64,000 bases of DNA, from assembly GCA_029245725.1 (NCBI GenBank), contig JAQWOT010000324.1, positions 1-64,000 of the forward strand, written 5' to 3'. Source of the stretch: SAR324 cluster bacterium. Its GTDB lineage: Bacteria; SAR324; NAC60-12. The position numbers and the translations under genes were made by a program. Below, piece after piece: positions 39,683-44,289 of the stretch. The notes beneath the pieces are model-generated. The model was not told the DNA's origin, did not search any database, and saw nothing but the letters and a program-made list of their open reading frames with translations. The first letter of the stretch is position 1, and the number at the start of each line of letters is the position of its first letter.

Positions 39683-40042
39683 ATGTTGCTGGGATTATCA
39701 CAAAGGAAATTTCCCGGTAAGCCAAAAATAAGAATGAGTAAGTTTAAGCCTCAAGAAGACCTCGTCACACTGACGAAACAGAAAGTAAAACCACCGGTTC
39801 AGTTTAAAGTCCTACTGCATAACGATGACTACACCACAATGGATTTTGTGGTACGTGTTTTAGAGGCGGTCTTCCACAAAAAGGCTGAAGAAGCGATTCA
39901 GATTATGTTACAGGTCCACAAGACTGGTGTCGGTATCTGCGGTGTCTACTCCTATGAGGTGGCAGAAACCAAAGTTGAAGCTGTTCATGAGATGGCTCGT
40001 CAAAACGAGTTTCCTCTCAGAGCAAGTATGGAAGAAGTTTGA
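39683..40042 (+). CDS. clpS: ATP-dependent Clp protease adaptor ClpS
   Basis: 119 residues from 39683 (AGGA about 10 bases upstream), or about 102 from the in-frame ATG at 39734. ClpS binds proteins with N-degron residues and hands them to ClpAP. The core VLLHNDDYTTMDFVVRVLEA holds the N-degron-pocket Asn-Asp, and MLQVHKTGVGICGVYSYEVAETK is the conserved second half. Directly followed by clpA with 17 bases between, the usual pairing. Together with bpt at 60.8 kb the window contains both an N-degron writer and the reader. Confidence 0.95.
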   Translation: MLLGLSQRKFPGKPKIRMSKFKPQEDLVTLTKQKVKPPVQFKVLLHNDDYTTMDFVVRVLEAVFHKKAEEAIQIMLQVHKTGVGICGVYSYEVAETKVEAVHEMARQNEFPLRASMEEV

Positions 40043-42297: not shown

Positions 42298-42466
42298 ACA
42301 AATAGTTCATACAAATTTCAGGGAACATCGAATTTTGAAGCTTTTACAAAATCAGCACTACGTGTGTTGAACTTTTCCCTTTTTGCGATTTTCATACAAT
42401 ATTACCCGTCCGCCTCCTTCCGCACTCAGGCAGGAAGCCAGATTGCCTCTCACAAAGGAGTCTATG

Positions 42467-43204
42467 ATGTCTCAGCATCTTCGCTCTACCCTCATCGCCA
42501 TTGCTGACACCGAACAGCAGGGTTTTGCTCTTAAACTACAGTTGAGACGCTTCGAAAAAGAAATTGCTGATGTAAATGAACTAGTTGCTCCTCTCGAAAT
42601 GGTTTTTCAAAACCTTCAGGCAGAGAAAAGCACGTTGATCAACCAACAGCAGCAAATGGAAAATGAACTCGAAGAGCAACGCATACTCATCGAAAAACTC
42701 GAAAAGCATGTTCCGCGAATCCGGAATGAAAAAGAATTTGAAGCCAGTAAAAAGCAACTGGAATTATCCCGCAAGCATCGCTCAATGCTAGAAGAAAACT
42801 TGTTAGAAGTTGCGATCAAATTAGAAGATTTAGACCCTGAACTGACTGAGCAGGAAGCTGAATTAGAAAAAGGGAAACAGGAATCAGAAGCAGCACTAGA
42901 ACAAACTGTTCTATCTCAAAAGCAAACTATCCTGGCGATACAAGAATTGTAAAATTTCTTCCAAAAATCTTTTGAAGGTGCGCCCAGGCCTATTCAGCAA
43001 TTTTACAAACGTTGCCAGCAAAATGGACTACATCGTCCGATCACCCCAGTTGTGGACAAAACTTGTGGGGGGTGTAACATTCGACTTCAACCTCAATTTG
43101 TAAATGAATTTCTAGCAGAACCAGATAATTATCGAAACTGCCCTCACTGCAACCGCATTCTTTACATGCCCCTAAGTGAAGAAGAGACTGCAGTCGACGC
43201 CTGA
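42467..43204 (+). pseudogene. Coiled-coil zinc-ribbon protein (COG1579-like), split by in-frame TAA
   Basis: Starting at ATG 42467 (6 bases after AAAGGAG; an ATG at 42464 is alternative), the frame encodes a long antiparallel coiled coil (PRIRNEKEFEASKKQLELSR) up to a TAA at 42950-42952. The same frame then continues without another stop to TGA 43202-43204 and encodes the missing C-terminal zinc ribbon: KTCGGCNIRLQPQ and NCPHCNRILYMP, four cysteines as in COG1579/CT398 proteins. Full length would be 245 codons, as in the family. Either the gene is newly broken, the stop is read through, or one base is wrong. Family members have been linked to flagellar or secretion ATPase and sigma-54 partners in some bacteria; function here unknown. 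Confidence 0.75.
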
Positions 43205-43218
43205 TTTCTCTCCTTTAC

Positions 43219-44289
43219 ATGAAAATCCCACTAATTCTCGTTTGTTGCCTACTACTGGCTGGATGTGAACTGAGCTACTACTGGCAAGCCACACGAGGCC
43301 ATCTAGACCTGCTTCAACGTAAGCAGGAAATCCAGAGTCTGTTGCTAGATAACACAACTGATCCGGAACTCAGAAAAAAGTTTCTGCTTCTTTCCGAAGT
43401 TCGCCGCTTCGCTTCCGCTGAATTAAATCTACCATCCGGCAATGGCTACAAAAGTTACGTAGAGTTGCCAAATTCCTATGTAAGTGTCCTCGTCTCTGCT
43501 GCACCACCCTTTTTACTAAACCCAAAACAATGGTGCTATCTGATCATTGGCTGCCAAAGCTATCGTGGATATTTCGATATTGCAGATGCTGAACAACTAG
43601 CAAATGAGTTGAGAGAGAATGGTTTTGACGTATCTCTTTCTTACGCAAGTGCTTATTCCACATTGGGTTACCTGAATCAGAGCTGGTTACCCGATTATTT
43701 TTCAGATCCAGTACTTAGTACTTTCCTCCAGCGTTCCGACAGGGAGCTAATCGCAACCCTCATACACGAGATGGCACATCAGGTGGTTTATGTTGCTGGT
43801 GACACATCTTTCAATGAGTCCTACGCTACCTTTGTAGAGCAGGAAGGCACATTGCAATACCTTAGAGCAAGTAATCTGGAGGATGAGATGGAACAAATCC
43901 GACAAAACTACGAGGATCGTTTATTATTTCGAAGTTGGATTGATGAAACTGTCAAAGATTTAAACGACCTCTACAGATCTTCATTAGATGAAGATAAAAA
44001 ACGACTGCAGAAACAATTGATTTTTGAACAATTGAAACAGCGCTATCAACAAAACTCATCCCAATTTCAGTTCTTGAATTACAGTCGATGGTTTGCTCAG
44101 GATTTGAACAACTCACATCTATTGGGTGTCAAGCGCTACCATAATTTTGTGCCTGCTTTTGAGGAGTTGTTTAAGAGCGAAGAACGCAATTGGGAGGATT
44201 TTCATGCGAAAGTTGGAAAACTCGCACAGTTACCAAAAGAAGGGAGAGATAAGTCGTTGAATCAATTAATTCTATCAAAAGTAAACTGA
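43219..44289 (+). CDS. Predicted aminopeptidase-type metalloprotease, lipoprotein
   Basis: 356 residues. Lipoprotein signal MKIPLILVCCLLLAGC with lipobox LAGC. The sequence matches the Aminopep (COG4324) family: SWLPDYFSDPVLSTFLQRSD, the zinc site LIHEMAHQVVY (HExxH, about residue 183) and the downstream SFNESYATFVEQEG giving the third, glutamate, ligand. The C-terminal region is helical (RLQKQLIFEQLKQRYQQ). Members are predicted, not well characterised, envelope peptidases. It overlaps the next gene by one base and follows the zinc-ribbon gene by 14 bases. Confidence 0.86.
   Translation: MKIPLILVCCLLLAGCELSYYWQATRGHLDLLQRKQEIQSLLLDNTTDPELRKKFLLLSEVRRFASAELNLPSGNGYKSYVELPNSYVSVLVSAAPPFLLNPKQWCYLIIGCQSYRGYFDIADAEQLANELRENGFDVSLSYASAYSTLGYLNQSWLPDYFSDPVLSTFLQRSDRELIATLIHEMAHQVVYVAGDTSFNESYATFVEQEGTLQYLRASNLEDEMEQIRQNYEDRLLFRSWIDETVKDLNDLYRSSLDEDKKRLQKQLIFEQLKQRYQQNSSQFQFLNYSRWFAQDLNNSHLLGVKRYHNFVPAFEELFKSEERNWEDFHAKVGKLAQLPKEGRDKSLNQLILSKVN

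Follow-up and report, generated by a model that had tools for sequence, protein, structure and literature searches.

Proteins of the DUF164/PF02591 group, such as HP0958/FlgZ of Helicobacter pylori, CT398 and MSMEG_4306, are built of two parts, a coiled coil and a C4 zinc ribbon. In Helicobacter, the partner of FlgZ is sigma54 (RpoN), and in H. pylori zinc-ribbon cysteine replacement greatly lowers RpoN (PMC3372290). We analyzed a gene of this type in a 64,000-nucleotide stretch of DNA (hereafter, the window) from a SAR324 cluster bacterium. The intact protein of a congener matches HP0958/FlgZ (PDB 3na7, E = 7e-13, residues 4-239), as well as CT398 (4ilo, E = 7e-12) and MSMEG_4306 (5y05, E = 3e-7), and it has the same two-part organization and the same length as these proteins. 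Unlike that of HP0958/FlgZ, the reading frame in the window stops before the zinc ribbon. RpoN is also encoded in this genome; a role of the protein like that of FlgZ is putative here, and the truncated form would not be expected to work in it.

Structure of the interrupted gene

According to its translation, the gene (42467-43204) consists of 161 codons, an in-frame TAA, 83 additional codons in the same frame, and a TGA (Table 1). By itself, the 83-codon tail matches the Pfam family PF02591 (E = 2.9e-10), in agreement with the original prediction that the TAA lies between a coiled coil and a zinc ribbon and is followed by 83 open codons. The frame had also been described as unchanged across the TAA, and the full-length proteins of congeners indeed align through this point without an indel. 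Given this alignment and the PF02591 match, the tail is coding sequence by descent, and its openness is not due to chance. The ribbon, with its two CxxC pairs, is present in the DNA and absent from the predicted 161-aa product, and its four cysteines are invariant in 19 of 19 aligned sequences. The possibility of a paralogue that would make the loss harmless was discarded, since this is the only PF02591 locus in the genome.

Table 1. Positions of the features of the interrupted gene in the window
Feature	Position	Strand	Basis
AAGGAG ribosome-binding-type motif and spacer; start ATGATG (42464 or 42467 possible)	42455..42466	+	sequence
Coiled-coil part of the HP0958/CT398-type protein, 161 codons, open	42467..42949	+	translation, alignment, structure match
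In-frame TAA; Glu codon there in three congeners	42950..42952	+	translation, congener alignment
In-frame continuation, 83 codons: coiled-coil end and C4 zinc ribbon	42953..43201	+	translation, Pfam
PF02591 C4-type zinc ribbon, CGGC ... CPHC	43061..43162	+	Pfam match
Original TGA terminator; next gene 14 bases on	43202..43204	+	sequence

The stretch that includes the AAGGAG motif is identical in the congeners G002, G001 and G005, and these genomes also share the gene order around the zinc-ribbon gene. This gene is preceded by clpS-like and then clpA-like genes, and the next gene (43219-44289) encodes a putative lipoprotein of 356 aa; these putative names were read from the sequence. The neighboring genes are intact, with dN/dS values well below 1. 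As a separate observation, the clpS-like gene (39683-40042), which adjoins the nearly invariant clpA, is rich in amino-acid changes on this branch, with 7 nonsynonymous to 6 synonymous private changes; the nonsynonymous count is 1 in G002 and 0 in G001.

The stop codon in related genomes

The gene was searched for in 58 genomes and was present in 47, this one included. At the same locus in relatives, where the original prediction had proposed to look, no stop was observed at this position in any of the 46 other genomes with a homologue. A row flagged 'TAA' in G022 corresponded to the natural terminator of that gene, not to an internal stop, and was set aside. G002, G001 and G005 encode an uninterrupted 245-aa protein with 90-94% protein identity and the codon of Glu162 opposite the TAA, and their alignment includes no indel around the stop position. 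Compared with these congeners, the Leu codon directly before the TAA carries a synonymous change. The contig of G004, which shows 97% DNA identity beside the locus, ends just before clpA and hence gives no reading of the stop.

The original prediction had also considered that the two halves could be separate genes with their own starts in relatives; in all of them, however, the coiled coil and the ribbon form one continuous ORF, which is broken by the TAA in this assembly, so the halves are not separate genes. Judging from these alignments, the TAA is derived and private to this assembly. A premature stop where intact orthologues have a sense codon, as expected of a pseudogene that arose by nonsense mutation, is what was found here, with Glu in the three congeners.

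Selection on the interrupted gene

Excluding the stop, the private changes on this branch are 8 nonsynonymous to 12 synonymous, versus 7 to 30 when the three congeners are pooled (Fisher p = 0.12); the excess of private amino-acid changes here is not significant. Taken individually, G002 and G001 have no private amino-acid changes and the more distant G005 has 7. The earlier statement that no other damage is seen was correct in that no other stop or frameshift is present, but it did not take into account the 8 additional amino-acid changes found in no congener. When the gene was compared with that of G001, the first 161 codons showed 11 nonsynonymous and 17 synonymous codon differences, and the last 83 codons showed 4 and 8, respectively. 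Hence, the halves before and after the stop do not differ, and no clear relaxation of selection was observed. Such a pattern is what a young stop or an artefact would give, and it fits readthrough as well. In the tail taken alone, no relaxation of selection was seen, which speaks against an old loss. One substitution separates 66 of the 245 codons from TAA.

Other interrupted genes in this genome and genus

We surveyed interrupted genes, together with stop usage, in a 457-kb sample that represents about a tenth of the genome. Laxer criteria were used to look for split genes, because a codon-composition search under strict thresholds did not recover the zinc-ribbon gene itself. The gene names given below were read from the sequence and are putative. 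A urtA-like gene, encoding the binding protein of an ABC transporter (L073:729-2021; G000:C8), contains one in-frame TAG, with the stop at 945; it is intact in G004, G001, G005 and G002, and the copy in G004 is 97% identical. An inositol-monophosphatase (IMPase)-like gene (L097:567-1316; G000:C179) also contains an in-frame TAG, with the stop at 891, and since the G004 copy is split by a frame change, this gene appears to be broken in both species. Several in-frame stops were found in the livG/livF-like ABC-transporter genes (L103:about 1700-2700; G000:C213): the livF-like gene is interrupted by a TGA, more stops occur in it and in the adjoining livG-like gene, and the Walker A motif is altered (GAGETS), suggesting a decaying pair. 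In the congener G004, a ROK-like regulator/kinase gene has two in-frame stops (L116:9625 and 9856; G004:C12).

The presence of genes interrupted by all three stop codons indicates that nonsense mutation and gene decay are ordinary background in this genus. In both the urtA-like gene and the zinc-ribbon gene, a single stop lies in an otherwise well-preserved sequence, and a very recent mutation, a minority allele or a consensus error would all have this look. The reasoning of the original prediction, by which decay would leave more behind than a single stop, does not separate the possible causes: a recent nonsense mutation looks the same, and the urtA-like gene likewise carries a single TAG.

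Alternative explanations for the TAA

Recoding, reassignment and restart of translation found no support. Recoding or reassignment of TAA in this bacterium would agree with the open frame, and nothing beyond it; however, TAA is an ordinary terminator here, since a stop is visible for 178 long ORFs of the 457-kb sample, and it is TGA in 93, TAA in 51 and TAG in 34. Additionally, two genes with an RF-1-family release factor domain are present, no stop-reading anticodon, UUA included, was found in the 32 typed tRNAs of an incomplete set (33 matches, one of them an untyped fragment), and the other interrupted genes use TAG and TGA too. Based on stop usage, release factors and tRNAs, reassignment was discarded, and we consider it extremely improbable. 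A split gene, with a separate start for the zinc ribbon and two polypeptides in place of one, would account for an open tail with a complete ribbon; nevertheless, no in-frame ATG, GTG or TTG occurs in the tail before codon 34, a GTG located just before the first CxxC, without a ribosome-binding-type sequence upstream. Considering also that both parts are one ORF in all relatives, this option was rejected as highly improbable. Functional leaky readthrough, by which some full-length protein is made and selection keeps the tail, is consistent with the undamaged tail, the intact zinc-ribbon cysteines, and the report that bacterial genes sharing an in-frame stop can retain a dN/dS below 1 (Belinky et al. 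2021, PMC7918605). Against it, TAA was the stop least prone to readthrough at every temperature tested with E. coli reporters (PMC11126739), the stop is conserved in none of the relatives, no suppressor tRNA was found among those typed, and a young stop predicts an intact tail equally well. We therefore regard leaky readthrough as very improbable, including the version in which the TAA is fixed in the species and a low, useful readthrough lowers the dosage of the zinc-ribbon protein while the tail is under selection.

The main rival to a recent nonsense substitution is a consensus error, strain mixing or a minority allele in the draft, in which case most cells would carry an intact gene. The draft comprises 407 contigs with an estimated contamination of 2.27%, the stop is a single one in an otherwise intact gene of one assembly, and the conserved urtA-like gene is likewise interrupted by just one stop in this genome and by none in four congeners. 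In contrast, a second substitution adjoins the TAA, at the third position of the preceding codon, which resembles a real haplotype more than a lone miscall; there are no indels or Ns nearby, the contig is 73.6 kb long with intact and alignable neighboring genes, and the multiply broken livG/livF-like genes reveal that true decay is also present in this genome. On balance, we consider an origin in the draft to be unlikely, albeit a serious candidate. Regarding the causes listed in the original prediction, most of the probability is shared by the two that remain, recent mutation and sequencing error; readthrough and recoding lack positive support, because no suppressor tRNA was found, release factors are present, TAA is the least leaky stop, and the stop is not conserved.

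Discussion

The most probable explanation is that a recent nonsense substitution in this lineage removed the zinc ribbon from the product of an ordinary single-copy gene. This is suggested by the stop being private, by the three intact congeners with Glu162, and by the fact that a one-step change is enough; comparable events with other stop codons in this genome, the release factors, the ordinary use of TAA and the lack of a suppressor tRNA among those found point in the same direction. The Glu codon would have been changed to TAA by a point substitution, with the synonymous change of the Leu codon directly beside it. Translation would then end at residue 161 and the zinc ribbon would not be made. 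The 161-aa product without the ribbon is probably inactive, and the protein, which when intact is probably an adaptor that binds protein or RNA, as does FlgZ in protecting RpoN in Helicobacter, would lose its function. Too little time may have elapsed since the appearance of the stop for more damage to accumulate.

The case described here is like those of Belinky et al. (2021), a widespread class in which one nonsense codon interrupts an otherwise conserved bacterial coding sequence. Those authors demanded the same stop in at least two genomes to exclude sequencing error, whereas here it occurs in one assembly only. By itself, this stop matters little, since bacterial genes commonly carry single nonsense codons and it is private to a single draft genome. 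Should many strains prove to have it along with a conserved tail, the gene would offer a clean natural test of the tolerance of an in-frame TAA via readthrough.
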